Shown: positions 129 to 35,954 of the stretch, in pieces
How the letters are laid out: each line of letters opens with the position of its first letter
Numbering within the stretch: the stretch's first letter is position 1
Assembly: GCF_001865575.2 (NCBI RefSeq)
Contig: NZ_CP017565.2
Coordinates: forward strand, 248,001-312,000
Direction: 5' to 3'
From: Paraburkholderia sprentiae WSM5005
GTDB lineage: Bacteria > Pseudomonadota > Gammaproteobacteria > Burkholderiales > Burkholderiaceae
DNA length: 64,000 bases
Program-made: the position numbers and the translations under genes
The notes under the pieces: model-generated
What the model was told of the DNA's origin: nothing
Database searches by the model: none
What the model saw: the letters and a program-made list of their open reading frames with translations, nothing else

Positions 129-1273
129 TCAGAATTTGTGACGAATTGCGACACGAGCGACGACCTGGTTCTGGGCCGACGACACGTCAGCGGCACCTGG
201 CACATAAGCGAAGTCGAGCACAGTTCCGGTTTGGTCGCCGCCAACGTGCTGATAGACGCCCTGAACGTATAGATCGGTGCGTTTGGACAGGTTGTAATCG
301 GCCATCCAACCAACCATTTGGTAGCTTGGGTTAAGCTTGCCCGCGGTACTGTTGAAGTCGGCTCGCGTGTATGTGTACATGGCCCCCGCATAGAACGCCG
401 AGGTGAACTGATACTTGCCGTTTATTTCGAAATTCTGAAAGCGCAGGCTGGAAAGCGTGCCTGCGGCGGGGGTAATGTCACCGACGTATCCGGATGCAGT
501 CGGATTAGCTACGTACGTGTTCGTGTACGCGACGCCAACATTAGCGGACCCGAAGGTGTAGCTCGCGCCTGCGCCGAAAATACGCAATTTGCTTCCTACG
601 AAGTTCTCGTCGCCTCCATTGTTGATCGCACCGCCGGCTGTAGCCGATGGATTGTTGGCCTGCAGATACGCCGCAGCGAGAAGCAGTCCACCGGTAGTGT
701 ACTGCGCACCGAGGCTGTATTGGCGATTGTTGGCAAAGTTCGTATCGTTCGAGAAGCTATACGTGCCGCCAAACTGAAACCCTGCGATCGTCGGACTGGT
801 GTACTTTACGGTATTGTTTACGCGGAAACTGTTGTCCGTGTTGTCATTGTCATAGGGGTGCGAAAAAAGATAGCCCGCCCAGTTGCCGTTCGCGGTGGTC
901 TGCGCCAGGTAGTCGACGACCGAATCATACTGTCGACCCAATGTCACAAAACCGAACTGATTCGAGGAAATTCCGACGTATGCCTGACGGCCGAACATCA
1001 GCCCGCCTTGCCCGAGGCGACCATTGTTGACATTGAAGCCGTTCTCCAGTTTGAAAATCGCGCTCAGCCCGCTGCCAAGATCCTCTGTTCCTCTAAGACC
1101 CCAGCGGCTACCTTGAGCGTAGCCGCTCTGGAGTTCATACACGTTCGAACCTGCGACATTGTTGGTGTAATCGAAGCCTTCATCAATCAGACCGTAAAGC
1201 GTCACAGTAGATTGAGCGAATACCGGAGTTGTGATAGTGGAAATAAAAAGTATAGCAAGTGTGATTTTTTCAT
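129..1273 (-). CDS. Gram-negative porin, signal peptide out of frame by one base
   Basis: General outer-membrane diffusion porin of the Burkholderia OmpC-like class, about 380 residues with signal peptide. The mature part opens VTLYGLIDEG, contains the beta-barrel repeats RWGLRGTEDLG and FGRQAYVGI, and ends in the C-terminal Phe (AIRHKF) recognised by the BAM machinery. The natural start is ATG at 1273: restoring one A to the A6 tract just after it gives a good signal peptide (MKKITLAILF...VFA/QS). As written, the frame shifts within that tract and only a leaderless GTG-start ORF (129-1205) remains. The gene is next to an amino-acid importer and probably lets its substrate into the periplasm. 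Sequencing error or slipped-strand variation could explain the missing base. Confidence 0.85.
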
Positions 1274-1415
1274 TAAAGTCTCCGAATATTAAAATATAAC
1301 TACATGAAAACGTCTTTATCGACGGGCCGGATTAACCACGTATGATTCGTACCCGATCTATCAGTATTACTGATGAAATAGCAGATGTCGCCGGCAGTTT
1401 GCTCACGGTCGCGGG

Positions 1416-2210
1416 CTACTTCAGGCTACCAGAGAGAAACTGCCTGAGTCGTTCGCTGCATGGCTTACTCAATACTTCCTCGGGAAGCCCCTCTTCCTCC
1501 GTGCATCCTTGATGAAGAAACACCACATGATTCGATACATTGCGGGCGAACCCCATTTCATGCGTAACCACGATCATTGTGCGTCCTTCGTCTGCGAGCT
1601 TTTGCATTACCTTGAGAACTTCACCTACCAGCTCCGGGTCGAGTGCAGATGTTGGTTCATCGAACAGCATCACGTCAGGATTCATCGCCAACGCGCGCGC
1701 AATCGCGACACGTTGCTGCTGCCCTCCCGAGAGATGCGATGGATACTGCTTCTCCACGCGCGGCGCGAGTCCGACTTTCTCCAGGTATTCACGCGCGCGC
1801 TCTTCCGCCTCGCGACGTGGCAGCCCGAGCACATGTACCGGCGCTTCAACAATGTTCTCGAGAACGTTCATGTGCGCCCAAAGATTGAAATGCTGGAACA
1901 CCATCGAGAGTTTCGTCCGGATACGCTGCAGCTGCTTCGGGTCCGCGACGTCGAGATCGCCGGATTTATCGGCCTTCGTCTTTACGGCTTCGCCATCGAC
2001 CGCGATGTACCCGGAGTTCGGCCGCTCAAGAAAGTTGATGCAACGAAGAAACGTACTCTTTCCCGAGCCACTTGCCCCGATGATGCTGATAACGTCACCC
2101 TTGTTTGCGTTCAGGGACACGCCCTTGAGCACCTCATGGTCTCCGAAGCGCTTGTGAATATCGTGAACTTCTAACTTGCAAGCTTCTGTCTGAGTCGTGT
2201 CCCTCAACAT
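1416..2210 (-). CDS. ABC transporter ATPase, polar amino acid/opine type
   Basis: Cytoplasmic ATPase of a HisP/OccP-type importer, 264 residues, full length. Walker [10 protein letters not shown] is at residues 45-53, the signature LSGGQQQR and Walker [13 protein letters not shown] follow, and the switch His is in VVTHEMGFA. It is the last gene of a minus-strand operon: binding protein, two permeases, ATPase. The family imports histidine, arginine, octopine and nopaline. The neighbouring three-subunit dehydrogenase favours an opine-like or other secondary-amine substrate, but the ATPase itself does not show specificity. Confidence 0.9.
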
Positions 2211-2295
2211 TCTGATCCCTTATCGTTAGTTTTAAAGCACCGGTGTGTTGGACACCCTGGCTGGACACCGACGTGCAGGCTTAATGAGCACGCGG

Positions 2296-2994
2296 TCAAA
2301 GGTAGCCGAGCCAGTGGCGTTCAGCACGCCGGAAGACAGCGACCATGGCGAAGGAGATGGTCATGTAAAGCAGCGCGGCAATGCCAAATGCCTGGAACGA
2401 CTGGTAGGTTGCAGAGTTGGCATCGCGGGCGACCTTCAGGATATCGGGCACGGTCGCCGTGAAAGCAACTGAGGTGGCATGCAGCATAAGGATCACCTCG
2501 TTGCCGTAGAGAGGCAGGGAACTTCGCAACGAGGAAGGGATGATGATGCGTCTGTAAAGGGTGAACCAGTTCATTCCGTACGCGCGTGCCGCCTCAACTT
2601 CACCGTGAGACATCGAGCGCATTGCGCCAGCGAATATTTCGGTCGTGTAGGCGCAGGTATTAAGCGAAAACGCAGCAATTGCGCAGTGGTAACCGCTTCG
2701 AAAAAAGGCATCGGTAAGCTCATGCGACCGAATAAACTCGAAGCTATAAATACCCGTATAGATCAGAAGCAATTGCACGTACAACGGCGTGCCCCGGAAG
2801 ACATACGTGTAGAAACGCACGGGCATGCTTATGCAGCGATTCGTGGAGACACGAGCCACCGCGAGGGGCACCGCCATCAGGAAGCCGACTACGAGAGATG
2901 CCACCAGCAGCCAGAGGGTGACGGCGAGGCCGGAGACGCGCTGCCCGTCCCAATACAGAAAAGCGCGCCAGAACTGGGTAAGGGTATCGATCAT
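2296..2994 (-). CDS. ABC transporter permease (OccM/HisM-like)
   Basis: Integral membrane subunit, 232 residues, about five membrane segments. The EAA loop that docks on the ATPase is visible as EVEAARAYGMNWFTLYRRIIIP. It starts only four bases after the end of the preceding permease gene, so the two are likely translationally coupled and form the heterodimeric channel typical of HisQM/OccQM systems. Length and order match the family. Confidence 0.88.
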   Translation of the reverse strand: MIDTLTQFWRAFLYWDGQRVSGLAVTLWLLVASLVVGFLMAVPLAVARVSTNRCISMPVRFYTYVFRGTPLYVQLLLIYTGIYSFEFIRSHELTDAFFRSGYHCAIAAFSLNTCAYTTEIFAGAMRSMSHGEVEAARAYGMNWFTLYRRIIIPSSLRSSLPLYGNEVILMLHATSVAFTATVPDILKVARDANSATYQSFQAFGIAALLYMTISFAMVAVFRRAERHWLGYL

Positions 2995-2998
2995 AAGC

Positions 2999-3688
2999 CT
3001 AGAGTTCCGCGTGACGAACGCCAGCCGAGAATCGTTTCTCGAGCCTGAACAGCACGAAATTGGAGATGGTTGTCATCGCGAGATAGATGAGCCCGGCACA
3101 CATGACAAAGAAGAACATTTTGAACGTGCTCTTACCCGCATCCTGTGTGGCCTTTACGACGTCTGCCAGGCCGATAATGGAAACAAGCGCAGTCGCCTTG
3201 ACCAGAACCTGCCAGTTGTTGCCGATGCCCGGAAGTGCGAAGCGCATCATTTGAGGAAACAGGATGCGCCGGAAAACAAGAGCCCCATTCATTCCGTAGG
3301 CGGCGCCCGCTTCCAGTTGCCCGCGCGGCACTGCAAGGAATGCGCCCCGAAAAGTTTCCGTGAAGTAGGCTCCATAGACGAAGCCGAGTGTCAGGACGCC
3401 TGCCGCGAACGGGTTGATGTCAAATTGCGCGAGACCCAAGGCGTCGGTAAGATTGTTGACCGCAATCTGGATGCTGTAAAAGACAAGGAGCATCAGGACA
3501 AGGTCCGGTACCGATCGTATCAAAGTTGTGTACGCTGAGCCGATTGCGCGAAAACCACGATTTAGCGAGAGCTTCGCGACGGCGCCCATGAGGCCAAGGA
3601 CAACCGCGGCCGCAAGCGACAGCACCGACAATTCAATTGTCCGCACAGTGCCGGCCAGCAACTGCGGACCAAATCCGATTAGAAACAC
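2999..3688 (-). CDS. ABC transporter permease (OccQ/HisQ-like)
   Basis: Second channel subunit, about 229 residues from the chosen GTG start at 3688, which has GGAG seven bases upstream and gives the usual family N-terminus (FLIGFGPQLLAGTVRTIEL). The frame stays open upstream to 3742, but that extension looks non-coding. The EAA loop is GQLEAGAAYGMNGALVFRRI. About 317 bases separate it from the binding-protein gene; that spacer contains GC-rich partial hairpins but no obvious gene. Such a gap often lets the binding protein be made in excess. Confidence 0.87.
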   Translation of the reverse strand: MFLIGFGPQLLAGTVRTIELSVLSLAAAVVLGLMGAVAKLSLNRGFRAIGSAYTTLIRSVPDLVLMLLVFYSIQIAVNNLTDALGLAQFDINPFAAGVLTLGFVYGAYFTETFRGAFLAVPRGQLEAGAAYGMNGALVFRRILFPQMMRFALPGIGNNWQVLVKATALVSIIGLADVVKATQDAGKSTFKMFFFVMCAGLIYLAMTTISNFVLFRLEKRFSAGVRHAEL

Positions 3689-4005
3689 ATGCGTCTCCGT
3701 GCTTGTTATAGATGGAAAACGGCGAGCCGAAAGTCCCCGCATCTCTGCTATGCGGCAACCGTTCAGTCACCCAGGCGGCAAGGAAAATCGCGGCGGCCCG
3801 GAAGGGGACTCACCGGGCGCGCAGGAGCGTCCTGTCCCACATCTCCTTCAACAAAGGCGTGGGAGAACAGAATAGGTAACGGCCCCTTTTCCGATGGCCA
3901 TTGGTTAGCCTGACGGTCTCCAAATGCCGGACCTTTGGCCGCTGGCGATTGGCACCAAACTCGGCCGCCGTTTTCGCAAGTTCTCTCTGGATAGTTGCAG
4001 GCACG

Positions 4006-4788
4006 TCAGCCGCCATAGATGTCGAAGCTGAAGTATTTCTTTGAAATCCTGTCGTAGGTGCCGTCTTTCCGGATGCTATCGATAGCGCCGTTGACTGCGT
4101 CAAGCAGGGCCTTGTCGCCTTTCCTGATACCGATGCTTACGCCGGGGCCGAAGATGCTTTCGTCCTTGATGGCCGGTCCTCGGGCGAATCCATAATCACG
4201 TCCTTGTGGTGTCTTCAGGAACCCCACGTCGGCCTGTGGCGCAAAGGCCAAAGCCGCGTCAATGCGACCCGTCACGAGGTCGTTCCAAACCTGGTCCTGG
4301 GTCTGGTAAGGAACCACCTCAACGCCGTTGTTGCCCCAGTACTTGCGTGCATAGGCTTCCTGAGTACTGCCCTGCTGTACGCCGACACGTTTTCCCTTGA
4401 GAGACTCCGCGGTTGGCACAAGCGGCGAGCCGCCTTTGACGACAAGCGCCTCGACGGGTGCATAGAGCTTCTTGCTGAAATTGATAACCTTGGAGCGCTG
4501 CTCGCTCTTGGTCATGGACGAATTGATTGCGTCGAATTTGCGCGCCTCAAGAGCCGGAATCATCCCGTCGAACGAATTCTCGATCCACACACATTTTGCG
4601 TTGAGCTTCGCGCAGATGGCGTTGCCCAAGTCTATGTCGAAACCCACAAGCTCCCCGTTTGCAGCTTTCGCCTCGAACGGTGGGTATGAGGTGTCCACAC
4701 CGAACCGGATCGTTTTAACGGTGTCGGCAGATGCCGTGAGCGGAAGGCAGGCTGCGGACAGCGCACTAAGAATTATCCAGAGTTTCAT
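4006..4788 (-). CDS. periplasmic amino-acid/opine binding protein
   Basis: Family 3 solute-binding protein, 260 residues, first gene of the importer operon. A signal peptide ends near ASA/D at residue 21. The ligand pocket signature YPPFEAKAANGELVGFDIDL and the motifs KFDAINSSM and GVQQGSTQEAYA are those of HisJ/ArgT/OccT proteins. It delivers the ligand to the two permeases just downstream. A paralogue lies at 10577. The exact ligand cannot be read from sequence. Confidence 0.9.
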   Translation of the reverse strand: MKLWIILSALSAACLPLTASADTVKTIRFGVDTSYPPFEAKAANGELVGFDIDLGNAICAKLNAKCVWIENSFDGMIPALEARKFDAINSSMTKSEQRSKVINFSKKLYAPVEALVVKGGSPLVPTAESLKGKRVGVQQGSTQEAYARKYWGNNGVEVVPYQTQDQVWNDLVTGRIDAALAFAPQADVGFLKTPQGRDYGFARGPAIKDESIFGPGVSIGIRKGDKALLDAVNGAIDSIRKDGTYDRISKKYFSFDIYGG

Positions 4789-5307
4789 TGATATGATCCC
4801 TTTTGCGGTCAGAGAAGGAGGCTGCTACAGCGAAATGGCTTGTCGAGCCACCAGGCTTTCCAGAAAGGACAGCGCCCAAGTGTTTCCACTGACTTGCCAC
4901 AGGCCCGACGAGAATCATGAGTGGGAAGCGATAACGGCGTCCAATTCAGAAAGAAAGGGAACCTATGCAAAATTGAGATAGCGGCACAACTGGAACACGA
5001 CGTATGGTCCCCGTCCCAATGGAGGAAGCTGCTTGACGCAACGATTCGAGCGTGCAGTCGACGGGTCGTCTGTCCTGCGATGGTCGCCATCTGGGGGAGG
5101 CGGTGTACTTTCCGGCTAGTTAAACGAGGGCCGAAAGACAAGGTAGGCCGGGCTCCATCGGCGAATCGGAGGGATTGGATGCAGTTTTGCCGATGGAGCA
5201 GCCAGTCTGGGGGCGCCGGCGCGGCAATCACGGTTGTGTCTGGCCCTCAAAGGTGCAAACGATCGCGTGCGGCAGAAAACCGTCCGGCGTTCTACGCCTA
5301 GGGATTT
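4789..5307. promoter_or_regulatory. intergenic region upstream of importer operon, with TGCATAGGT box
   Basis: No convincing gene is seen in these 519 bases between the binding-protein and LysR genes. On the minus strand TGCATAGGT occurs at 4969-4961, about 175 bases upstream of the binding-protein start. The same nine bases recur in the LysR/oxidoreductase promoter at 6256-6264, so this is a candidate LysR site controlling the importer. Confidence 0.4.
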
Positions 5308-6207
5308 TTACTGCCAGCTTACGATTTCCCGTTCAAACTGGTCTCGCAACAGCGCAGCAAACTCCTCCGCCAACTGCGAGGCTGCTCCATGTGGAGGGTA
5401 AAGAAGAAAGTTCGGGTAGTTGATGGATGGCGAAAACGGCAGTACCTTGATTCCCTGGCCTACATAATCCGTAGCTACGAGGGGATGGGCCAATGTCACG
5501 CCGAGCCCCAGCTTTACCATCTCACAACACGTGGCACTGTATTGCGCTTCGAACGACAGCACACGTTCCACCCCCTCCTGATCAAAGACACGATCGGTTT
5601 CTTCTCTTGAGCCGTCTCCATGCACAAGCGAGATGTATTGCTCGCCGCGAAGGTCGGTAGCCTTCATTCTGCTTTTTCCAGCGAGACGATGGCCTTTCGG
5701 CAGAAGGCAAACGACCTCGGCGTCCGGTAGCGCAATCGCTTGGCAGGTAGCGGCGGCAGATACGAACGCGACGATTCCGACGTCGCAGAACTGTGACGAT
5801 ACCCATTCCTCTACCGTGTTGGACGTATTGGTATGGATCGATACGGTCACATCGGGGCGGGACTGCCTGAAGCGCTGCACGACTCTGGGAAGGAAGCTCA
5901 TCCCGATGCCGGGGATTGACGCAATGCGCAGGCGGCCGCTGCCGAGATTGCGAATGCTGTCGGCCGCGTACGCGAGGCTTTTCAGCCCGACGAAGACGCG
6001 CTCAACCTCGCGAAACAGAGCTTTTGCCTCCGGCTTTGGACTGAGACGTCCACCGGAGCGCTCGAAGAGAACGAGCCGCGTATCCGCCTCGAGTTGAGTA
6101 ATGAGCCTGCTCACGTTGGACTGAGAAGTATGCAGTTCTTCGGCAGCGCCGGTGGTTGAACCGGCTTGCATCACTGCGCGGAAGGCCTCGATTTGACGTA
6201 GCTTCAT
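5308..6207 (-). CDS. LysR-family transcriptional regulator (OccR/NocR-like)
   Basis: About 299 residues from ATG at 6207 (MKLRQIEAFRAVMQAG), the usual LysR beginning; the longer frame to 6363 is not needed. The winged helix-turn-helix covers residues 1-60 (TTGAAEELHTSQSNVSRLITQLE) and the inducer-binding domain follows, with typical CEMVKLGLGVTL. It is divergent from the dehydrogenase genes and upstream of the importer operon on the same strand, the classic arrangement for an opine-type regulator that senses the imported compound. Confidence 0.88.
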   Translation of the reverse strand: MKLRQIEAFRAVMQAGSTTGAAEELHTSQSNVSRLITQLEADTRLVLFERSGGRLSPKPEAKALFREVERVFVGLKSLAYAADSIRNLGSGRLRIASIPGIGMSFLPRVVQRFRQSRPDVTVSIHTNTSNTVEEWVSSQFCDVGIVAFVSAAATCQAIALPDAEVVCLLPKGHRLAGKSRMKATDLRGEQYISLVHGDGSREETDRVFDQEGVERVLSFEAQYSATCCEMVKLGLGVTLAHPLVATDYVGQGIKVLPFSPSINYPNFLLYPPHGAASQLAEEFAALLRDQFEREIVSWQ

Positions 6208-6415
6208 CTTGAGTATCTCGTTTCGGCATAGGATTGCATTATATTGGCATTTGACTGCATAGGTAGGGGCCGTCAACATCCGTGCTACTACGCACGTGGC
6301 TCGTTGGTAGCGAAGACGCTTCAGGCAAAGCCGATGCTTTTTTCTCTGCTGTGCAAGGCGCATACAGGAGGGGCGAGCTACGGCACGAAATCATTATCTT
6401 CGGCAAGGACGCAGT
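6208..6415. promoter_or_regulatory. divergent promoter with repeated GCATAGG boxes
   Basis: GCATAGG occurs twice in direct orientation (6226-6232 and 6257-6263), 31 bases or three helical turns apart, flanking an AT-rich TTGCATTATATTGGCA segment that fits the LysR T-N11-A pattern. A ribosome-binding sequence (AAGGACG) precedes the oxidoreductase ATG. The role is inferred from position. Confidence 0.4.
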
Positions 6416-7561
6416 ATGAAGACACACCATTTGACGGGCTTCTACGATGCGATTGTCGTCGGCGGTGGGCTGGTCGGGTCTGCTGTCGCCTATGGCATCG
6501 CCCGCGAGGGCGCTCAAGTCCTCGTTATTGACGAGGGGAACGACACGTTCGGCGCGTCGGTGGGCAACTTCGGCCTGGTCTGGGTGCAGGGCAAAGGTAT
6601 CGGACAACCCGCGTACACTGCATGGACCCGGGAATCCGCGGCGCTCTGGCCATCATTCGCCGACGCCTTGCGCGATGAAACCGGCGTGGACGTGCAGTTG
6701 CTGCAGCCGGGCGGTTTCGATTTGTGTTTTTCAGATGGCGAGCTCGAGGAGCGTGTAAAGCAACTGCTGCGGCTATCGAACGACGCCGGTGGCGACTATC
6801 CTTTCGAGGTTTTCGGCCGCGCGGACCTGAAGGCCCGGATACCGGAAATTGGCGGGTCCATCGCCGGCGCAACGTATACGCCAATGGACGGGCACGTGAA
6901 TCCGCTAAAGCTACTGCTCGGCTTACGAAGAGGCTTGACCAACCGCAAAGCACACCTCGTTAACTCCGAGAGGGTGGTGCGCATTGACTCCCAACCCGGC
7001 GGATTCGTTGTACACGGACAGCGGGGGCACTGGTGCTCTGCACGGGTAGTGCTCGCAGCGGGTCTGGGCAACAAGGACCTTGCGGCCATGGTCGGGTTAC
7101 AGGCTCCCGTCGTGCCCATACGCGGTCAACTCCTCATAAGCGAGCGCGTCGCGACGTTCCTTCGCTTCCCCACCGCCACAGTGCGGCAGACGATTGAAGG
7201 CACTGTCCAGTTGGGCGACTCACTTGAGAACGTCGGCTTCGATAGCGGTGTCACAACGGACGTGCTCTCGGAAATAGCAATGCGCGGGGTGAAAGCTTTT
7301 CCACTGCTTCGTGACGTTCGGCTAGTGCGGGCATGGGGGGCTCTCCGCGTGATGACTCCGGATGGATTCCCGATCTATGAGGAGTCCGCGAGCTGTCCCG
7401 GGGCCTTCAATATCAGCTGCCATAGCGGGGTAACACTTGCCGCGGCGCACGCGCTGCGGCTTGCGGGTTGGATAACCGGCGAACGGCGAGTTCCGAATTT
7501 CCAGTCGTTTGCCGCGGATCGCTTCCGAAAACCCTATGAATCTTTTTCCCATGTCGACTGA
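6416..7561 (+). CDS. FAD-dependent oxidoreductase, DAO family (opine/D-hydroxyproline dehydrogenase beta-type subunit)
   Basis: 381 residues. The N-terminal dinucleotide-binding motif is AIVVGGGLVGSAVAYGIA (about 13-30), followed by the substrate-side motif SVGNFGLVW and a C-terminal FAD contact around SCHSGVTLAAA. In this class the DAO-like subunit oxidises the C-N bond of a secondary amine and passes electrons to the [2Fe-2S] and second FAD subunits encoded next. Both octopine/nopaline oxidases (OoxB) and D-hydroxyproline dehydrogenase (LhpE/HypO) look like this. The start at 6416 follows a good ribosome site. Confidence 0.88.
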   Translation: MKTHHLTGFYDAIVVGGGLVGSAVAYGIAREGAQVLVIDEGNDTFGASVGNFGLVWVQGKGIGQPAYTAWTRESAALWPSFADALRDETGVDVQLLQPGGFDLCFSDGELEERVKQLLRLSNDAGGDYPFEVFGRADLKARIPEIGGSIAGATYTPMDGHVNPLKLLLGLRRGLTNRKAHLVNSERVVRIDSQPGGFVVHGQRGHWCSARVVLAAGLGNKDLAAMVGLQAPVVPIRGQLLISERVATFLRFPTATVRQTIEGTVQLGDSLENVGFDSGVTTDVLSEIAMRGVKAFPLLRDVRLVRAWGALRVMTPDGFPIYEESASCPGAFNISCHSGVTLAAAHALRLAGWITGERRVPNFQSFAADRFRKPYESFSHVD

Positions 7562-7913
7562 ACCGCTCTTCGAGCAACTGCCGGTTGCGCAAGGTCCAAA
7601 GGTGCGCATTACCTTCAACAATGTACCTTATGAGGTGCCTGACGGAATGAACCTGGCTGCCGCGCTCCTTGCTGCGGGTGTCCGACGTTTCCGCAGTACG
7701 CCTGTGTGCCGATCCCCGCGGGCACCCTATTGCATGATGGGTGTTTGCTTCGAGTGTCTGGTCGAGATCGACGGGACTCCGAACTGCCAGAGCTGTCTCG
7801 AAAGCGCGCGTGACGGCATGGCCGTTCGGTCACAAGAAGGCGTGCGGCAGGTGCTGGCCGAATTCACCGCTGAGTCAGCAAGCACGATTGGTGGAAAGGG
7901 GCAGCGTCAATGA
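7551..7913 (+). CDS. small [2Fe-2S] subunit of heterotrimeric amine dehydrogenase
   Basis: About 120 residues from ATG at 7551, overlapping the preceding stop. Earlier in-frame ATGs at 7509 and 7536 are possible. The Cys pattern (TPVC, YCMMGVCFECLVEIDG, CQSC) is that of the ferredoxin-like gamma subunit in OoxX, LhpF and HcnA-type complexes. It should bridge electrons between the two flavoproteins. The four-base overlap with the next gene indicates a coupled trimer. Confidence 0.82.
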   Translation: MSTEPLFEQLPVAQGPKVRITFNNVPYEVPDGMNLAAALLAAGVRRFRSTPVCRSPRAPYCMMGVCFECLVEIDGTPNCQSCLESARDGMAVRSQEGVRQVLAEFTAESASTIGGKGQRQ

Positions 7914-9301
7914 TGCCAGAATCAGTTGATGTCGTAGTTATCGGTGCAGGACCAGCAGGCATGAGTGCCGCGACCACCGCCGCGCAGGCGGGACTTAAGG
8001 TTGTGCTGCTTGATGAACAAATGGCAGTCGGCGGCCAGATCTATCGGTCTATTACCCGCGCCGACGACAAACGTATTGACTTGCTCGGGCCGGACTACGC
8101 GTCTGGAAGCACTATTGCTGTGGCTTTGTCCGCAAGTAATGTTCGCCATGTAACCGGTGCCCAAGTATGGTTTGTGAGCAGAGAGCATGCGGTACATTAC
8201 ACGCAGCAAGGGCAGAGCAAGTCCTTGGTGGCGCGTCACGTTGTGCTCGCCACGGGCGCCATGGAAAGACCATTTCCGATTGTCGGCTGGACTACACCTG
8301 GAGTAATGACCGCCGGTGCCGCGCAGATTCTGCTGAAAGCATCTGGTACGGTACCTAGGCAGCCGGTCGTGCTCGCAGGCTGTGGACCACTACTCTATCT
8401 GCTTGCCTGGCAGTACTTGCGTGCGGGCGTGCCCATCCGGGCCTTCGTCGAGACGACTGGTCTTGCAGACAAATTCAGAGCGGCGAAACATTGGTCGAGC
8501 GCCCTGTTGGGGTGGCGCGACTTGACGAAAGGCCTCAACTTGTTGCGAGCGCTCAGAAGGGCACGCGTACCAGTCTACCGAGGCGCAGCAGAGCTGCAGG
8601 TTGAAGGCGAGCCGGTTGCCACAGCACTGACCTTCATAGCGAGCAGGAAGCGTCAACGCATTGATGCTCCACTGATACTTCTGCATCAGGGGATCGTGCC
8701 AAATACGCAAATCACTTGGTCGCTTCAGGCATCGCATCATTGGGACACGAACCAGCTGTGCTGGGTTCCGGACCGCAACGATGTCTTCGAGCTGGACGTG
8801 CCAGACGTTTTCGTTGCAGGCGATGGTGGCGGCATCGCGGGCGCGAAGGCGGCGGCGACGCAAGGACAAATCTGTGGGCTGGAGATAGGCCGCCGTCACG
8901 GCAGGATCGAAAGACGTGAGTTTGATAAGCGGCTCGACAGCTTGCGCTCGGAGCATGCCGGGCATCTTAGCGTACGGCCGTTTCTCGATGCGCTATATCG
9001 ACCTAGCGACGGAACACGAATTCCGGCAGATGACGTGTTGGTCTGTAGATGCGAGGAGGTCACGGCAGCCGAGATTCGGCAATCGGTAGCGCTTGGATGC
9101 GTTGGTCCCAACCAAACCAAGGCGTTCAATCGATGTGGTATGGGCCCCTGCCAGGGCCGACTATGCGGGCTGACCGTCACGGAGATCATCGCGCGAGAGC
9201 GTCGTGTCTCCCCGGAAGTCGTCGGCTACTACCGGATCAGACCACCCATAAAACCTCTTACACTTGGGCAGTTGGCGTCAATTAGCGACCATGCCGAGTA
9301 A
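7910..9301 (+). CDS. FAD/NAD(P)-binding oxidoreductase with BFD-like [2Fe-2S] domain (alpha-type subunit)
   Basis: 463 residues, starting in an ATGA overlap with the ferredoxin-like gene. The FAD motif VVVIGAGPAGMSAA is near residues 8-21, a second Rossmann segment VVLAGCGPLLYLLA lies near the middle, and VFVAGDGGGIAG marks the FAD C-terminal contact. The tail carries VCRCEE ... CGMGPCQGRLC, a BFD-like [2Fe-2S] site. This is the OoxA/LhpB/HcnB-type subunit that passes electrons onward. Its full set of cofactor motifs argues the complex is functional. Confidence 0.88.
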   Translation: MMPESVDVVVIGAGPAGMSAATTAAQAGLKVVLLDEQMAVGGQIYRSITRADDKRIDLLGPDYASGSTIAVALSASNVRHVTGAQVWFVSREHAVHYTQQGQSKSLVARHVVLATGAMERPFPIVGWTTPGVMTAGAAQILLKASGTVPRQPVVLAGCGPLLYLLAWQYLRAGVPIRAFVETTGLADKFRAAKHWSSALLGWRDLTKGLNLLRALRRARVPVYRGAAELQVEGEPVATALTFIASRKRQRIDAPLILLHQGIVPNTQITWSLQASHHWDTNQLCWVPDRNDVFELDVPDVFVAGDGGGIAGAKAAATQGQICGLEIGRRHGRIERREFDKRLDSLRSEHAGHLSVRPFLDALYRPSDGTRIPADDVLVCRCEEVTAAEIRQSVALGCVGPNQTKAFNRCGMGPCQGRLCGLTVTEIIARERRVSPEVVGYYRIRPPIKPLTLGQLASISDHAE

Positions 9302-9446
9302 CACGTGCAACGTTGAAACAGGACGCCGCGATCAGCAATGCGATCGCTACGAACCACAAGGACAGCAGTTACGACAAACCCGGGAAGATGCGCTTCATCT
9401 ACGAGGTTCACGGCGACTGAATCCTGATTTTTAAAAAGGGAATTTT

Positions 9447-9791
9447 ATGATAATCCGTCAAGGAATTACTGGAAGGCTGAGCAAAGCTTTGGTGGTGAAT
9501 GGCTTTGCGTTTCTATCGGGTCTGACCGCCCGAGACACTACCGGGGGTGTCAGGGAGCAAACAGAAGACATCCTTGCCCAGATCGACAGTCATCTGAAGG
9601 CCGTCGGAACGGACAAGTCCCGCATCGCGGTTGCGAACATCTGGCTGCGGGACATTCGTACCTTCGACGAGATGAATGAAGCATGGGAGGCATGGGTCGA
9701 CAAGGAGAGTCCGCCCGCACGGGCGACGGTCGAATCGCGTTTGGCGGGTGAAGCCATTCTGGTTGAGATCCAGGTTCAGGCGGTCGCGTGA
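9447..9791 (+). CDS. RidA-family enamine/imine deaminase
   Basis: 114 residues with AAGGGA before the ATG. The family Arg is in PPARATVESRLA near residue 92. RidA proteins hydrolyse reactive imines or enamines, which is what an amine dehydrogenase acting on a secondary amine would produce, so a clean-up role beside the dehydrogenase is natural. In the 145-base gap before it an open frame ends KPGKMRFIYEVHGD (stop at 9420). It looks protein-like but is not recognised and may be a remnant. Confidence 0.87.
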   Translation: MIIRQGITGRLSKALVVNGFAFLSGLTARDTTGGVREQTEDILAQIDSHLKAVGTDKSRIAVANIWLRDIRTFDEMNEAWEAWVDKESPPARATVESRLAGEAILVEIQVQAVA

Positions 9792-10576
9792 TGGACGCGC
9801 TCCCACACGGACTGTCCTGTACTTATATGACCTGATCTTGGAGGTTGCAGTTACTCGTGACCGTGAAGGTTTTGAGGAGCTTGGACAGCCCCTAGGCTCG
9901 AGGACTGGCGTCCGGGTAGCGAGTCGAACCGATTGAGCCGTCTTCGTACGGCCTAATGCGAGCGGTAAAGACCTCGATTGGGGCACGCCTGAGAACGTCA
10001 TGCACTTCCAGTTGCTATCTCGCACTTTTTAAAGGCTGCACGTGGGTGACCTGCGCTCTGCTTTTCTCCCTCAGCCGGTAACGCTGGATGGTGACTTGAC
10101 GGAAGTGACGGTGATCCCACAGTCGGTCGAGCGAGGAGTCCGGCGGACTTCGGCCAGGTGAGCGTTAACGGCCGCCGCCCGCCCATCGCTGGCCTATCTC
10201 AAATTCGCATAGTTGGCCCATTTATCCGCATTCCGAACCCATCTAACGAAGTGTACGATTTATGTGTAGGCGCTGGAGACCACGCGAGAGCCTGATAGAT
10301 TAGGGCAAACGCGTCATTCTCTCGGCAGTTATTTTCGTTGCTTGCATTCAACTCCAGGGCATCTTCGCGATTGTTCCCATAGTTCGGATGGACGTCTGCT
10401 TCCGCTCCGGGTGTTGTAATCGGGGTGCCTTATCGGATTGGCGGGGAGGAGGCTTCTTGACCTTCGTTACGTCGCCGGGCGGCTAACACTGAGCCAAAAG
10501 TACTACCGAAAAGCCGTATGTTTTAAATGAATAGCTTAACCAATCACAAATTCGATCTATAAAGGAAGGGGCGGAG
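9792..10576. other. 785-base stretch without recognised gene
   Basis: No reading frame here resembles a known protein. The last 70 bases are AT-rich and probably hold the promoter of the second binding protein. A GCATAGT sequence near 10208 partly matches the boxes at 6226 and 6257. Confidence 0.5.
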
Positions 10577-11344
10577 ATGAGACAACTGGTAGCCTCCACT
10601 GTGCTTTGCTTGCTGGCGTCTTCTGCGTGCGCCGCAGATACTCTGCGCTTCGGCGTTGAGGCAGACTATCCGCCGTTTGAATATAAGCTGTCCAGCGGAG
10701 AATTGGCAGGTTTCGATATTGACCTTGGCAATGCCGTTTGCGCGAGACTGCAGGTCAAATGCAAATGGATTGAAAATTCGTTCGATGGCCTCATTCCCGC
10801 TCTTGAGGCGCGGAAATTTGACGCCATCAATTCGGCCATGTGGGACACAGAACAGCGCGAAAAAGCAATTGATTTCACATCCGTCATTTATGCGTCCCCG
10901 ATCCGCCTGGTGGCGCGCTCGGAGAGTCACATCTTACCGGATGCAGAATCGCTCAAAGGTAAGCGCGTCGGTGTGCAACAAGGTGGAACGCAGCAATACT
11001 ACGCGGAACAGAAGTGGGCGCCGGCTGGCGCTGTGGTCGTCACATATCCAAGTCAAAGCCAGGTATTCGCGGACTTGGCTGCCGGTCGAATTGATGCTGC
11101 CTTGCAATCGCAGCAAAGCGCGGAGGACAGTTTTCTGAAGAAGCCCGAAGGCAAAGGGTTTGCGCTGGTTGGCCCGCCACTGACCGATGAGAAGATATTC
11201 GGCCGCGGAGTTGCTTTCGGCGTCCGCAAGCAGGATCCGGAGCTCAAAGCTCGTCTTAACGAGGCTATCGCCTCCTTGAAACAGGATGGCACGCTTAGCA
11301 AGATTGCCAAAAAGTATTTTCAGTATCAGATCGTGACTCCCTGA
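10577..11344 (+). CDS. second periplasmic amino-acid/opine binding protein
   Basis: 255 residues, family 3 solute-binding protein, clearly paralogous to the one at 4006 (shared YPPFE, GFDIDLGNA, WIENSFDG, KFDAIN, SLKGKRVGVQQG). The signal peptide ends ACA/AD near residue 20, and AAGGAAGGGG is a strong ribosome site. No permease or ATPase accompanies it, so it probably feeds the importer at 1.4-4.8 kb and widens its ligand range. It is transcribed apart from that operon, towards the MmgE/PrpD gene. Confidence 0.9.
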   Translation: MRQLVASTVLCLLASSACAADTLRFGVEADYPPFEYKLSSGELAGFDIDLGNAVCARLQVKCKWIENSFDGLIPALEARKFDAINSAMWDTEQREKAIDFTSVIYASPIRLVARSESHILPDAESLKGKRVGVQQGGTQQYYAEQKWAPAGAVVVTYPSQSQVFADLAAGRIDAALQSQQSAEDSFLKKPEGKGFALVGPPLTDEKIFGRGVAFGVRKQDPELKARLNEAIASLKQDGTLSKIAKKYFQYQIVTP

Positions 11345-11557
11345 AATTTCCCGCAAATTCCAACGTGGAGTTTCGCGTGCTTGGGACCAAAAGCGACTAT
11401 TTATCGAGATTACTGCACACCCGCGCAACTTCTGCGGAGAGATCTCGCACAATGGAAGCAGGAACGATCTCATTGAGCAAAGCGAAGAAGGTTCGGGAGA
11501 GAAATCTCTAAGAGCCGTCCATGATACGAGGAAGGACCCTATGAAGAGGAAGCAGCT

Positions 11558-12961
11558 ATGAAGTCGCCGGTGGCATGTCGGGACCCGCACACTACAGTCG
11601 TCGACCTGTTCGCATCCTATGTCGAAGAGGCTCGAGACAGGCCTGTTCCGCAACACGTTTCGGATGTCGCCATAATGCGTATTTTTGATCTCATGAGTGC
11701 GGCTGGAGCAGGCATCTATGAGCAGATCGCGGTCGTCACCCGCGACTTAGCTCTGGAAACCTTTCCGCCAGGGCGCGCACCGATCTGGTTCGCAGGCGCC
11801 GCCAGTTCCGTCATTGGAGCCGCTTGGGCGAACAGCGCAGCCGCTTCGGCGCTCGATCTTGACGACGGGGATGCAGTGGCGCGCGGCCATCTCGGAGCGG
11901 CGGTTATTCCCACCGCTTTCGCCGTGGCCCATGAAGTCGGCGCGACATTCGACGAAATCGTGCGAGCCATCGTTATCGGCTACCAAGTCGGTGCGACGAT
12001 CGCTTCCGCGCGCACATCGTATGGTACGACCGGAACTTGGGCCCCCTATGCTGTAGTCGCGACAGCGGGCGCGCTCCGTGACATCGGCAGACGTGTATTG
12101 GCGCACGCACTTGCAATTGCGGGGGAAGCGGCGCCGAACTGCGCGTTTTTGAGTGCTCCTGCGCCCCATGACCCGCCCCCCGAAGGCAGTGACGTAAAGG
12201 AGGGGATTCCTTGGTCTGTCGTAACTGGCCTAAATGCCTTGGAGGCGGCTCAGAAGGGAATGACCGGACCACGAAATATTCTCGATAGTGTTCGTCATTA
12301 CAAGTTTCCAGTTGATCTCGACGAAGTTATTCGTTCCGGTCCACGCATCAGGGATAGCTATTTCAAATTCTATTCCTGTTGCCGACACATCCATGGTCCG
12401 CTGGATGCGCTGCAGGAGTTAATGGCAAAGAACAAAATCAAAGCGCCAGATATTCAAGAAATTAAGGTCGAAATTTACGACGACGCAATGCGTCTTGAAA
12501 ACAGGTGTGAGCCCCAAAATCTACCGGACATCCAATACAGCATCCCCTACTGTCTCGCACTCGTAGCTTTTTTCGGGCCGCAGGCCTTGCTGCCACTCAG
12601 TGGGGGGGCTCTGAACCGCGACGAGATATCTGCTCTCGCTCGAAAAGTTTTGCTGTCGTGTAGCGCAGATATTGAAGCGTTATATCCGCAGCAAACGCTA
12701 TCGCGCGTGGCTATCACGTGTGGTAGCGGAACGTTTACCTCTGGAGATACTGCTCCGAAGGGCAAGGGCGAGCATGTCACCTGGCAGGAGCTCGAGTCGA
12801 AGTTCAAGACGGCGACACGCCTTGTCGCCCTTCCGGCACAGCAGAACAAGATCGTTGAGGCCGTACACCAAGCCCGGGCGGGGAATGCGTCAAGCTTGAT
12901 GACCTGTCTCGCGGAGGTGAGATTTGACGAAGTGGACCAACGCACGAGCAACGAAACCTAG
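11558..12961 (+). CDS. MmgE/PrpD-family protein
   Basis: 467 residues. The family N-terminal helical domain shows GAAWANSAAASALDLDDGD and HLGAAVIPTAFAVA, and a later segment FYSCCRHIHGPLDAL matches the PrpD pattern Y-x-C-C-x-x-x-H. The family includes 2-methylcitrate dehydratase, cis-aconitate decarboxylase and the iminodisuccinate epimerase of Agrobacterium. In a secondary-amine catabolic locus an epimerase or lyase on an imino-dicarboxylate is an attractive guess. The reaction is not proven by sequence. Confidence 0.82.
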   Translation: MKSPVACRDPHTTVVDLFASYVEEARDRPVPQHVSDVAIMRIFDLMSAAGAGIYEQIAVVTRDLALETFPPGRAPIWFAGAASSVIGAAWANSAAASALDLDDGDAVARGHLGAAVIPTAFAVAHEVGATFDEIVRAIVIGYQVGATIASARTSYGTTGTWAPYAVVATAGALRDIGRRVLAHALAIAGEAAPNCAFLSAPAPHDPPPEGSDVKEGIPWSVVTGLNALEAAQKGMTGPRNILDSVRHYKFPVDLDEVIRSGPRIRDSYFKFYSCCRHIHGPLDALQELMAKNKIKAPDIQEIKVEIYDDAMRLENRCEPQNLPDIQYSIPYCLALVAFFGPQALLPLSGGALNRDEISALARKVLLSCSADIEALYPQQTLSRVAITCGSGTFTSGDTAPKGKGEHVTWQELESKFKTATRLVALPAQQNKIVEAVHQARAGNASSLMTCLAEVRFDEVDQRTSNET

Positions 12962-13328
12962 TTATCTCTAGTAGGAGAAGTATGAAGCCATCTACACCGG
13001 AAGATTAATGATGGGTTGGCGGATGTGGTTTGACCCGTTGAAACGACGTAGGATTTGGTTGCTTAGGCCGATTCGAATCATTTCCGGGAGATCAAATCGA
13101 CCATGAAGTGGATCCAAAGCTTCCCGTACTGGGAATAATCACCTTTGCTGATATTTCGCAAAAGGCGATTGGCGCGGGCCACCCCACTTTCATGCGTGCT
13201 TTGGGCATCTGCCAATGAAACCGGCACTTCTACCAGGTGCTAAGCGCAGTAATTAAATATGATAGAAGAAACAGCGCCTGCGGATCTGCAGATGACTAAT
13301 CTTCTGTCTGTGACCTTTTCCAGGAAAT
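12962..13328. other. 367-base spacer, no gene recognised
   Basis: Only short frames are present and none resembles a known protein. The segment may carry the promoter of the enolase-superfamily gene. Confidence 0.5.
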
Positions 13329-14492
13329 GTGATGCGAGATGGATCCGACGTTAATGCGATGGCACGGGTCGTCGCAGCCGAGGTGTTCGAAATTGAGGCG
13401 GCGCTTGTTACCCCATACAAGCTGTCCGAAGGAACACTGGTGTCAACACGCGCCGTATTGCTCAAACTGACGGACGCCGATGGCGTTGAGGGCTGGGGCG
13501 AGGCCAATCCTTACGATACCTTTACTGGAGGCACGGCCAGCGATGCTGCACGTGCCCTAAAGGAAACACTGCTGCCTGCAGTCATGGGATCTTCGGCTCC
13601 CACCCCCGGTTGCATCGACGAGGAACTCGATACACGGCTCGCCGGACACCTCAGCGCCAAAGGGGCCGTGACGATGGCTCTGCTCGATATACTCGGCAAG
13701 CGGCTCCGTGTCCCCGTTGCAACGCTACTGGGCGGGGCGCTGCGGGAGTCACTTCCAGTGCTTTGGCCGCTCAGCAATGGTACGCCCGAGGAAGACATCC
13801 GCGTGATCGACCAGCGGATTGAGCAAGGATTCTCAAGCTTCATGTTAAAGATGGGTACGTCGCCAATACGTAGCGAGATACAACGGGTGGCAGACCTAGA
13901 GGCGCGTTACGGGAGCCGTATAACGCTGATCGCCGACGCTAACGAAGGCTGGAACCGCGAGGAAGCTCGTGAGTTCCTGAAAGGAGTTAGTGGCTCCCGG
14001 CTTGCGTTCGTCGAACAGCCGTTGGAGAAGTCTGATCTGGAGGGAGCGGCGTCGTTGGCGAGGGACAGCAGGCTTGCGATCTCAGCGGACGAAGCGGTAG
14101 CTGGACTCTCGCATGCGGCGCGGATCGGAAGCGTCGGTGCCGCTAGTGTCTTTAGTGTTAAGAGCAGCAAAAATGGAGGCCCTTTGCGTGCTCAGCGCAT
14201 TGCGGCAGTGGCCCAGGCGTTTGGGATTCGCTGCTACATGAATTCGATGATTGAATTCGGCGTCACGCAAGCCGCGTCACTGCAGCACGCCGTAACCATA
14301 GGGAATCTCGTCGACGTCGGCCATGCCTTTATGTCAACGTTACGCCTCGCCGAGGACCCGACCGATTTTTCTTCACTTGTGCGAAAGGGGGTAGTGCATC
14401 TTCCGGAAAGAGCGGGATTGGGCGTGGAGGTAGACGAGTCGCATGTGCGTCGGATGGCGGTAAGCGGATTTCATCTTCGCTCACCACAGTGA
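13329..14492 (+). CDS. mandelate racemase/muconate lactonizing enzyme family (enolase superfamily)
   Basis: 387 residues. The capping domain is followed by the barrel residues typical of the muconate-lactonizing/dipeptide-epimerase branch: a Lys in FMLKMG, metal ligands in ADANEGW, VEQPL and SADEAV, and the opposite Lys in VFSVKSSKNGG. Two Lys across the active site suit 1,1-proton transfer (racemase or epimerase) or a lactonization. Together with the MmgE/PrpD neighbour it could convert stereoisomers of the amine substrate before oxidation. The exact start is uncertain (13329, 13332 or an internal Met). Confidence 0.82.
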   Translation: MMRDGSDVNAMARVVAAEVFEIEAALVTPYKLSEGTLVSTRAVLLKLTDADGVEGWGEANPYDTFTGGTASDAARALKETLLPAVMGSSAPTPGCIDEELDTRLAGHLSAKGAVTMALLDILGKRLRVPVATLLGGALRESLPVLWPLSNGTPEEDIRVIDQRIEQGFSSFMLKMGTSPIRSEIQRVADLEARYGSRITLIADANEGWNREEAREFLKGVSGSRLAFVEQPLEKSDLEGAASLARDSRLAISADEAVAGLSHAARIGSVGAASVFSVKSSKNGGPLRAQRIAAVAQAFGIRCYMNSMIEFGVTQAASLQHAVTIGNLVDVGHAFMSTLRLAEDPTDFSSLVRKGVVHLPERAGLGVEVDESHVRRMAVSGFHLRSPQ

Positions 14493-14839: not shown

Positions 14840-15440
14840 GGCAATCTTGCCGATGTATCCTGACGAGAGCGGGTCGGCTACATAGATATTCGAATATGAA
14901 ATGCCAACGTTAGCCGAACCGAACGTGTAGGTTGCCCCGCGCCGAAGATACGAAGCCTGCCACCTAGAAAGGTTTCATCGGCGGCGGGATTGTTGCCGAT
15001 TGCGTCGCCCGCAGTCAACGACTGGTTGTTTGCGTGTAGATACGCAGCCTCAGGGAGCAACCCACCGGCAACGATAATATGGGCAATACGTCGTTGTCGT
15101 ACGGATGGGAGAAGATGCCGCCACCCGACGTATCATTTGACGTCGTTTCAGCAAGATAGCTGACGACAGAATCGTACTGTCGAGCGAGAGTAACTGTACC
15201 GAATCGGGTCTGATGCAATGCCGATCCACTCCTTAAGACCAAACATCAGGCCACCCGGATCGAGCTTGCCGTTGTTGGAATTGAAGCTGTAACTGGATAC
15301 AGCCTTGAATCCGCCACCGAGATCCTCCGCTCCCATGAGGCCCCAGTGACACCCCTGAATGGTACCGCTCTGAAGCTCGAATATCTTACTACTACCGACA
15401 CTATTTGAGAAATTGAAGCCTTCATCGATCAGGCTGAGAC
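14840..15440 (-). pseudogene. porin remnant, homologous to the porin at 129-1273
   Basis: Pieces of a second porin are visible in different minus-strand frames: SLIDEGFNFSN, GGLMFGLKEWIGIA, TVTLARQYDSVVSYLAE, IFSHPYDND, then after an internal deletion AYLHANNQSLTAGDAI and FLGGRLRIFGAG, ending in SGYIGKIA. The signal peptide, part of the middle and the whole C-terminal third are missing. With the intact porin at the other end, it brackets the catabolic island. Confidence 0.85.
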
Positions 15441-18041: not shown

Positions 18042-18336
18042 CGGAGCATTGCGACGCGCCGACGCGATGCTTTGCGTCGACGCTTCCGGTCGCCGTTATC
18101 CTACCGCTCGTCGCCGGCATTTTTTAGGAGGCAGTAGACGCGATCAGGATGGTCGCGGCGCTGCCTGCGACTCGCGTGATCCAGGCAGTGATCGCGTCAC
18201 TGTGAAAACTGCGATCACCCGCCACGTTGTGGGCCTCGGCTTGGCAGGCTTGTCGACCGTTTGATGGTGCCGGTTGGCCGCTACTTGGCTAACACGCAGA
18301 AGCACGATCGGGGCGGGTTCGGGTCGCCAGGCGATT

Positions 18337-19575
18337 CTATGGCCGCACGCGCCGGAGAAACGACGCGAACTGCCATGCGACCGGCACACAGGCGGAGGCG
18401 AGCAGCCCCGCCGGAAGCGGGAGCCAACCGGGCAGATTGCCGATACCGGTCCAGTTCATTGCCGAAACGAGCAGGGAAACGATGGCGCCAGACAGCAACA
18501 TCGCTGATGCGCAGCGCGGGGGGACCTGTCGACCACTCTCGTGCAAGAGGAACAGCAACCCGACGGCCGCAACGTAGACGATGTTCAGCGAAACGATGGT
18601 CGACAGAATCGCCTGACCATCCGTCGCGATTGCGCAGCCAATGGCGACGATCAGCAGGCGCGACGCATAGCCGTAACGACCGTCACAGGCATGCAGGCCC
18701 TCAAGCGCCGATGACATCGCGCGCGTGATCGCGGTCCCTGATCCGAGAGCAGAAAGCAGGATGACGCCGATGCAAACCGATCCCATCGCCCCACTCGTTT
18801 GCAGCATGATCCACGGGATCGCGCTCGCGGTGTCCGTCAGGCCGGACAGCTTGCCGGCATGAAACGCTGCGACGACTGTTGCGGCCGGGAGAAACCCGGT
18901 CACCATGAGGAAGAGGCTCGCAAGTACGCAGCCGAGCCACCCGTCTCGCGGTCGGCGCGCTGAGACGACAAACTGTTGATAGTCCGATCCCGTGACGACC
19001 AGAAAGCCGACTGCCGCGATGGTCACCAGTGTTTCAGCGCCTGGCGCGGCGCGTGTCTCCTGGATGAAGGACGTCCACGCGTGAACGTACACGGTCAGGC
19101 CGTGCGATGCGACAAGCGCATGCAGGAGCGCGATGTTCATAGCCAGCAGGCAGCACGCGAAGAGCGCTGCGGCCATGCCGAGTTCGATGGAGGACATGAC
19201 CAGCAGCGCCGCGGCGATCACCGCCAGTGCATGGGTTGCCGGCAGTCCCGTCGCGACTAGCACGGCGATACCGCCATGAATCTGGGCGGCCAGCACGCCA
19301 GACATCCAGACGAGCGAGAGCAGCGCGACGAGCTTGCGCACGACGGGACCGTAACGCTCGCCCAACACGTCCCAGATGAGTTCGCGTCCCCGCCAGAGCG
19401 TGGGTGCGGCCAGCGCGAGCGCGAGCATGCCCAGTGCGGTGACGATCGCATACAGACTGCCCGCCATACCGGCATGGAGTGCCATTTCGCCGGAGCCGAG
19501 CAGGAATGCAACACCGTAGCTTGCCGAGACCAGCAGTGCAGCCACGTGAACCGCCCCGAGATTACGCTGCAACAT
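18337..19575 (-). CDS. multi-pass permease, sodium:solute-symporter-like
   Basis: About 412 residues from ATG at 19575, preceded by GGAGGCGAC. It has roughly 11-12 hydrophobic segments. The N-terminal stretch SYGVAFLLGSGEMALHAGMA resembles SSS/APC-type symporters. The start lies inside the end of the desaturase gene (14-base overlap), so translation of the two is coupled. The substrate is unknown. Confidence 0.65.
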   Translation of the reverse strand: MLQRNLGAVHVAALLVSASYGVAFLLGSGEMALHAGMAGSLYAIVTALGMLALALAAPTLWRGRELIWDVLGERYGPVVRKLVALLSLVWMSGVLAAQIHGGIAVLVATGLPATHALAVIAAALLVMSSIELGMAAALFACCLLAMNIALLHALVASHGLTVYVHAWTSFIQETRAAPGAETLVTIAAVGFLVVTGSDYQQFVVSARRPRDGWLGCVLASLFLMVTGFLPAATVVAAFHAGKLSGLTDTASAIPWIMLQTSGAMGSVCIGVILLSALGSGTAITRAMSSALEGLHACDGRYGYASRLLIVAIGCAIATDGQAILSTIVSLNIVYVAAVGLLFLLHESGRQVPPRCASAMLLSGAIVSLLVSAMNWTGIGNLPGWLPLPAGLLASACVPVAWQFASFLRRVRP

Positions 19576-35953: not shown

Positions 35954-35954
35954 C
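35656..35954 (+). repeat. 299-bp direct repeat, copy 1 (IS6-type 3-prime end)
   Basis: Matches 42877-43175 base for base as far as I can compare. It ends with the IS right end plus one shared C. Confidence 0.85.

Follow-up and report, generated by a model that had tools for sequence, protein, structure and literature searches.

Genes at the locus

The window analysed here is a 64,000-nucleotide stretch of Paraburkholderia sprentiae WSM5005, corresponding to positions 248001-312000 of contig C5. The genome is 7.84 Mb in five contigs. The left part of the window carries an island of thirteen genes in two divergent series. Genes for a porin, an ATP-binding cassette (ABC) importer, a binding protein, and a LysR regulator run leftwards. 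Genes for an OdhB-C-A-type dehydrogenase, RidA, a second binding protein, an MmgE/PrpD-family protein, and an enolase-superfamily protein run rightwards. This gene set very probably imports and degrades opine-type compounds, which are conjugates of an amino acid and a keto acid. Opines are best known from crown-gall tumours. The features are as follows.

129..1205, minus strand: outer-membrane porin (Porin_4; Pfam, 153.9 bits)
1416..2210, minus strand: HisP-type ABC ATPase of the importer (Pfam ABC_tran)
2296..2994, minus strand: HisM-type permease (Pfam; HisM model)
2999..3742, minus strand: second permease, HisQ-type (Pfam BPD_transp_1)
4006..4788, minus strand: binding protein 1 (pbp1), LAO/HisJ family (Pfam; LAO, 272 bits)
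5308..6363, minus strand: LysR regulator (Pfam)
6416..7561, plus strand: OdhB-type beta subunit (DAO) of a flavin opine dehydrogenase (Pfam DAO; beta tree)
7509..7913, plus strand: OdhC-type [2Fe-2S] gamma subunit (Pfam Fer2_4; Cys spacing)
7910..9301, plus strand: OdhA-type alpha subunit with flavin adenine dinucleotide (FAD) and BFD domains (Pfam Pyr_redox_2, SO_alpha_A3, Fer2_BFD)
9447..9791, plus strand: RidA-type imine/enamine deaminase (Pfam)
10577..11344, plus strand: binding protein 2 (pbp2), LAO/HisJ family (Pfam; LAO, 252 bits)
11558..12961, plus strand: MmgE/PrpD-family protein of an opine-dehydrogenase-linked clade, candidate epimerase (Pfam; clade test; model nearest to iminodisuccinate epimerase)
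13329..14492, plus strand: enolase-superfamily protein, candidate opine epimerase (Pfam; orthologues in opine loci; catalytic residues)
18195..19607, strand not given: right copy of a 1413-bp direct repeat bracketing the island (self-blastn, 98.4% identity)

The sequence-only reading had proposed these thirteen genes, and open reading frames (ORFs) and Pfam matches confirm all of them at or very near the coordinates proposed there. The Pfam search covered 20 ORFs in window 1-20.5 kb. A gene set this large is not a chance pattern. The real start of LysR is probably near 6207, because the helix-turn-helix match begins only at residue 55. That reading had also noted that the downstream enzymes of the octopine/nopaline and hydroxyproline routes are lacking. 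This is borne out among the 20 ORFs, where no ornithine cyclodeaminase, proline/hydroxyproline epimerase, or dihydrodipicolinate-synthase-like protein is found. Four matches to PF02423 over the cut-off are present elsewhere in the genome.

The flavin dehydrogenase and the importer

The genes for the beta (DAO), gamma ([2Fe-2S]), and alpha (FAD, BFD) subunits are adjacent in the order B-C-A, which is the arrangement of the flavin opine dehydrogenases (OpnDH). Watanabe and colleagues (PMC4575208) showed that OdhB-C-A of Pseudomonas putida encodes a nopaline dehydrogenase and B1-C-A-B2 of Bradyrhizobium japonicum octopine dehydrogenases. The three subunit families, their order, and an importer nearby are common to those clusters and the island. 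The island adds the MmgE and enolase-family genes; the words "epimerase" and "enolase" are absent from the main text of PMC4575208. Compared by eye with the motifs given there, the gamma subunit carries Cys-X4-Cys-X2-Cys-X11/12-Cys, the nucleotide-binding motif Gly-X-Gly-X2-Gly is seen in beta and alpha, and Arg-X-Trp is seen in beta. The alpha subunit reads Cys-X-Cys-X27-Cys-X4-Cys, while the published form is Cys-X-Cys-X15/20-Cys-X4-Cys.

A quick IQ-TREE phylogeny of 64 beta-type subunits was supported by the Shimodaira-Hasegawa-like approximate likelihood ratio test (SH-aLRT) only. Four weak DAO rows were removed by hand beforehand, and the tree contained no NoxB, PpOdhB, or characterised D-hydroxyproline dehydrogenase. 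In this tree without NoxB, the window subunit belongs to a 10-row clade (SH-aLRT 98) inside a 19-row group (SH-aLRT 85). The same group holds a separate 8-row clade, which includes the annotated OoxB of the Agrobacterium plasmid pAtCFBP4996a and the subunits of Phyllobacterium, Ensifer, and a further genome, G459.

The annotated octopine operon of pAtCFBP4996a is LysR-occQMPT-ooxB-Fer2-ooxA-RidA-arginase-ocd-traR (its first permease carries no gene name in the annotation). LysR, a four-gene basic amino acid importer, ooxB-Fer2-ooxA, and RidA are common to this operon and the island. Since RidA follows ooxA there, its presence in the island is not odd for such an operon. The occ operon has arginase and ornithine cyclodeaminase, which are absent from the 20 ORFs, whereas the island adds a porin, a second binding protein, and the MmgE and enolase-family genes, and its binding proteins lack the octopine signature.

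The island ATPase scores 431.5 bits with the HisP model, under the cut-off of 466, and the permease at 2296..2994 scores 407.6 bits with the HisM model, above the cut-off. Ser72 and Asp161 of LAO are both missing in pbp1, and pbp2 has Trp72 and Ser161 by LAO numbering. Loss of this alpha-amine clamp was considered as a sign of opine binding and dropped, because other family members in the genome vary likewise. An apparent Arg in the keto-acid pocket of a binding protein was gone once the register was set on LAO.

The sequence-only reading had named an opine-like or related secondary amine as the substrate. The opine-type part is supported, for an island that is not a textbook octopine/nopaline operon. 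A hydroxyproline route is unlikely, given that contig C2 carries a DAO/Fer2/FAD set of its own next to a proline-racemase gene. More generally, a substrate of the N-methylated proline, hydroxylated proline, or related betaine type, oxidised by an enzyme that works like D-hydroxyproline dehydrogenase, is very unlikely. A Pseudomonas plasmid locus speaks for this idea, as its beta subunit is 53% identical to that of the window and stands beside a BCCT transporter and two mandelate racemase/muconate lactonizing genes. The beta subunit of the C2 set, however, falls outside the 19-row group on a long branch, and a dehydrogenase paired with a hydroxyproline/proline epimerase is found on C2, not in the island. 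Furthermore, the cis-3-hydroxy-L-proline dehydratase model NF043002 (cut-off 500) gives the enolase-family protein just 101.8 bits, and orthologues of this protein sit in octopine-type operons. The Pseudomonas locus (Pseudomonas sp. MPC6 plasmid, L104:3816-13030) combines those transporter and racemase-family genes with a related dehydrogenase set, RidA, and a binding protein, perhaps for a betaine route.

Two candidate epimerases

Orthologues of the enolase-family gene (eno) are rare in the genome searches, which covered samples of genome families and were not exhaustive. Among 299 genomes of its family, the window's own genome is the sole match at E 1e-60. A search at E 1e-90 in the family of the Ensifer genome found 2 of 394, the Ensifer genome itself and G459. 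One plasmid record has at least 60% identity to the protein among 1138 with any match. The loci of six copies in five genomes were compared; the next relative is at 29% identity.

In the nodule isolate Phyllobacterium zundukense, the order is GntR-importer-eno-DAO-Fer2-FAD-RidA-ornithine cyclodeaminase-CtlX-ADI family, and the DAO subunit is 79% identical to OoxB of Agrobacterium plasmids. Ensifer sp. IC4062 has GntR-importer-eno-DAO-Fer2-FAD-RidA-ornithine cyclodeaminase, and its DAO subunit shares 88% identity with the Phyllobacterium one. G459 has importer-eno-DAO-Fer2-FAD and LysR; RidA was not found at this locus. A second Ensifer copy is followed by a dehydrogenase of another kind, the nicotinamide adenine dinucleotide (NAD)-type opine dehydrogenase (PF02317), then GntR and an ATP-grasp gene. 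In Paraburkholderia sp. BL21I4N1 (G300), pbp2-MmgE-eno is located at a contig end. Co-occurrence in other genomes, on which the sequence-only reading had made its proposal depend, is therefore seen: Phyllobacterium and Ensifer each have eno, a His/LAO-type importer, the three-gene dehydrogenase, and RidA side by side, and G459 has the same set except RidA. Its idea that two isomerases replace the downstream enzymes does not hold, as eno coexists with ornithine cyclodeaminase in these two alpha-proteobacterial versions. For the same reason, the enolase-family enzyme looks like an extra step, not a substitute.

Lys174, Asp203, Glu229, Asp254, Lys278, and Glu309 are invariant in the six sequences. 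As in the muconate-lactonizing subgroup, all six have Asp203, Glu229, and Asp254, which we take to be the metal ligands, and Lys174 and Lys278 on strands 2 and 6, presumably catalytic. The protein shares its fold family, metal ligands, and Lys on both sides of the site with muconate cycloisomerases and enolase-superfamily racemases. It differs from these in the first Lys of the strand-2 KxK motif and in scoring under the NCBIfam cut-offs. Muconate cycloisomerase identity was rejected on the score with TIGR02534 (221.4 bits; curated cut-off 334.95). A dipeptide-epimerase reading was dropped, since the DxD motif presumed for that activity is not seen in the sequence.

For the MmgE/PrpD protein, iminodisuccinate epimerase (2hp0/2hp3) is the nearest PDB relative by sequence and by fold, and the protein has the MmgE/PrpD fold. 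The family active-site residues given for bsIRG1 in PMC7347537 are D91, R100, H102, H151, K200, K266, and C271. By mapping from spacing, D91, R100, H102, K266, and C271 correspond to Asp100, Arg109, His111, Lys270, and Cys275 of the window protein. In a clade test, this protein falls in an opine-dehydrogenase-linked MmgE/PrpD clade. Of the 22 "other" loci in that test, five (L034, L037, L038, L051, L054) have a flank below 4 kb. Six plasmid loci (L062-L065, L101, L102) were added from 281 records with an MmgE match, chosen by MmgE rank and not by dehydrogenase. The broken Ensifer MmgE was left out of the tree, and one contig-end locus (L015) is in the tree unscored. MmgE accompanies the dehydrogenase at loci with importers of different families. 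OpnDH-type genes and mmgE are also in the same region in the sac/lec regions (succinamopine/leucinopine) of pTiEU6, as described in part of PMC6733357; the importers there are of other families, mmgE is given a propionate role, and the description of these regions names no enolase-family gene. In Agrobacterium pusense pAt1 (L101:7409-11353), two MmgE/PrpD genes flank ornithine cyclodeaminase, with a TauD dioxygenase, RraA, LuxR, and acyl-homoserine lactone synthase nearby.

From gene content, conserved linkage, fold, and residue equipment, we infer the following scheme. The porin and the His/LAO-type ABC importer with two binding proteins would take up an N-substituted, probably basic, amino acid, i.e., an opine. 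The OdhB-C-A-type dehydrogenase would oxidise the secondary amine to an imine, which could break into amino acid and keto acid with the assistance of RidA. Before oxidation, the MmgE/PrpD and enolase-family proteins may each strip the alpha-carbon proton beside the secondary amine and return it on the opposite face. Such epimerisation would convert stereoisomers unusable by the dehydrogenase, such as L,L-opines, into a usable form. Each enzyme might act on one of the two alpha-carbons, or the two might handle different substrates delivered by the two binding proteins. The epimerase roles are proposed because the genes are linked to two unrelated kinds of opine dehydrogenase, and because fold and residues suit proton removal beside a carboxylate. 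The step is chemically reasonable, since tumour opines are found as D,L and L,L epimers according to PMC6733357; PMC10410297 reports a compound that is probably an isomer of L,L-leucinopine. The data allow the undescribed substrate proposed from the sequence, yet they would fit equally well a stereoisomer of a known opine or a compound closely related to one.

It is possible, at a fairly low probability, that opines are degraded here while the MmgE and enolase-family proteins act at another step: on a product, with hydratase, dehydratase, or lyase activity, or on an opine lactam or lactone, with cycloisomerase activity. The MmgE/PrpD family has 2-methylcitrate dehydratases and cis-aconitate decarboxylases among its known members, and muconate cycloisomerases are the best-scoring match of the enolase-family protein. 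The authors of pTiEU6 assign mmgE to propionate in the part of PMC6733357 on this gene. On the other hand, the persistence of MmgE with the dehydrogenase despite differing importer families fits an opine step better than a product step, and the fold ranking favours iminodisuccinate epimerase.

The closest solved structure, in sequence and fold, would also suit a true iminodisuccinate epimerase in an island degrading aminopolycarboxylates such as iminodisuccinate or a natural iminodicarboxylate. There is only a slight chance of this, as identity is about 20%, the importer is of the basic amino acid family, and no C-N lyase family is found among the Pfam-searched island genes. It is also highly unlikely that two units with possibly different substrates have been joined here, one of them the opine dehydrogenase and the other the pbp2-MmgE-enolase cassette. 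The region is shuffled, with repeats, transposases, and a group II intron reverse transcriptase, and the cassette is found without the dehydrogenase in BL21I4N1; yet MmgE and the enolase-family gene are each linked to opine genes elsewhere.

Several facts weigh against an opine-catabolic island in which OdhABC is preceded by two epimerases. Neither ornithine cyclodeaminase nor arginase is among the 20 ORFs. The octopine signature of OccJ (Ser91, Asn111, Ala164, Asn202; table in PMC5740067, seen in part) is absent from both binding proteins, which have Thr/Glu/Gln/Phe (pbp1) and Trp/Ile/Gln/Ser (pbp2) at these positions. Among five other members of the binding-protein family in the genome, one has both clamp residues, two have one, and two have neither. 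The first Lys of KxK in the enolase-family protein is Met in 5/6 sequences and Ala in 1/6. The MmgE protein is just about 20% identical to iminodisuccinate epimerase, and counterparts of bsIRG1 H151 and K200 are not seen at the aligned positions, where the alignment is unsure. No close MmgE is found in the Phyllobacterium record or in G459. BL21I4N1 has no match to the dehydrogenase or to opine dehydrogenase, and its contigs end where the dehydrogenase is expected. The composite of OdhABC and two upstream epimerases is given a probability of about 0.5, a value lowered on account of the unsure alignment at H151/K200 and of the missing NoxB and D-hydroxyproline references in the beta tree. A literature search, which was not exhaustive, found no paper tying opine to MmgE and PrpD; it overlooked the publication on pTiEU6, in which mmgE is named but PrpD is not. 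Its one match joining opine with the enolase superfamily apparently deals with sugar alcohols. It also found none on "opine catabolism" with epimerase, nor phrases such as "opine epimerase".

Possible opine synthesis and the symbiosis replicon

Contig C5 is a symbiosis replicon, because nifD, nifK, nifE, nifN, nodJ, nodI, and nodC lie to the left of the window (C5 216001-235500), each above its curated cut-off. Between the nod genes and the island, an NAD-type opine dehydrogenase gene (PF02317 and ApbA) is located at C5 238263-239600 on the minus strand, likely starting at Met80. A co-directional MatE gene follows it (C5 236567-237955). The C5 opine dehydrogenase shares 70% identity with its counterpart downstream of the second eno copy of Ensifer; a MATE fragment of 61 residues comes directly after that counterpart (L082:4456-4638). 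Identity is 57% to an opine dehydrogenase of an Agrobacterium fabrum plasmid, whose gene has a MATE exporter gene and an aminotransferase gene as neighbours. The C5 MatE and the A. fabrum plasmid MATE show no blastp match at E 1e-5.

The 1413-bp direct repeat (98.4%) brackets the island at C5 246407-247818, outside the window, and at window 18195-19607. Both copies contain a gene for a transporter-like protein of about 421-425 amino acids with no Pfam match. Short copies of the end of the island lysR (363 bp, 99%, C5 240720-241082) and of mmge (147 bp, 97%, inverted, C5 246216-246362) sit between the island and the opine dehydrogenase, amid transposase and group II intron genes. The bracketing repeat and these short copies suggest that the island and the opine dehydrogenase region were once one cluster, which has been duplicated in part and split apart. 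Elsewhere in the window there are an inverted 1378-bp repeat pair (98.6%) at 51960-53337 and 57065-58442, and an identical 299-bp direct repeat at 35656-35954 and 42877-43175. No inverted repeat was found between RidA and pbp2. After the enolase gene, the next Pfam-matching ORFs belong to the EAL, LysR, and fatty-acid desaturase families. Directly after that gene, a porin-like stretch (window 14866-15432) shows 35% identity to the island porin over 235 residues. BL21I4N1 has a porin 73% identical to that of the island on a separate contig. The island LysR is 54% identical to that of a Paraburkholderia locus carrying a related dehydrogenase.

It can be speculated that the nodulation plasmid carries a loop in which a true opine is made, exported, imported, and eaten. 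The NAD-type opine dehydrogenase, if working in the synthesis direction, and the MatE exporter would make and export the opine in nodules; the island would let kin eat it, and the two epimerases would be the stereochemical key so that only carriers could use it. Murphy in 1987 (cited in PMC8416774) reportedly described an opine-like compound that is made and eaten in Sinorhizobium meliloti. As with the rhizopine mos/moc genes of that species, genes that may make and break down an opine-like compound lie here on a replicon with nif and nod genes. In contrast to the rhizopine, the currency here would be a true opine, and no sigma-54 site with at most one mismatch was found near the opine dehydrogenase. 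In C5 216-312 kb, searched with a sigma-54 motif at up to one mismatch and no shuffled control, the only sigma-54-like site is at C5 272948, far from both the opine dehydrogenase and the island. Loose nod-box patterns have scattered matches, of which those at C5 232970 and C5 232992 lie some 0.9 kb upstream of nodC; no match at the opine dehydrogenase was judged real. The Ensifer locus has two sigma-54-like sites, counted without a chance rate, one of which (L082:1438-1453, plus strand) lies some 150 bases upstream of the second enolase-family gene. No nif or nod match is found on the 107-kb Ensifer contig. The loop is considered unlikely because the synthesis direction, nodule expression, and product of the dehydrogenase are hypothetical, no sigma-54 site was found near it, and the Ensifer contig shows no nif or nod match. 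The non-exhaustive literature search returned nothing joining rhizopine with opine dehydrogenase, nor an opine loop on a Paraburkholderia symbiotic plasmid.

The usual scheme of opine catabolism consists of import, oxidation, and amino-acid breakdown. If two unrelated families serve as epimerases, stereochemistry would join the private-resource logic of opines. A clade annotated as MmgE/PrpD would gain a testable function, and the enolase-family protein would represent a new activity in a superfamily widely used for function prediction. If the loop exists, the rhizopine idea would be realised with Agrobacterium-type opine chemistry in a beta-proteobacterial symbiont, by parts common to alpha-rhizobia. 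The neighbouring nif, nod, and opine dehydrogenase genes make true opines directly testable as a currency of legume nodules.

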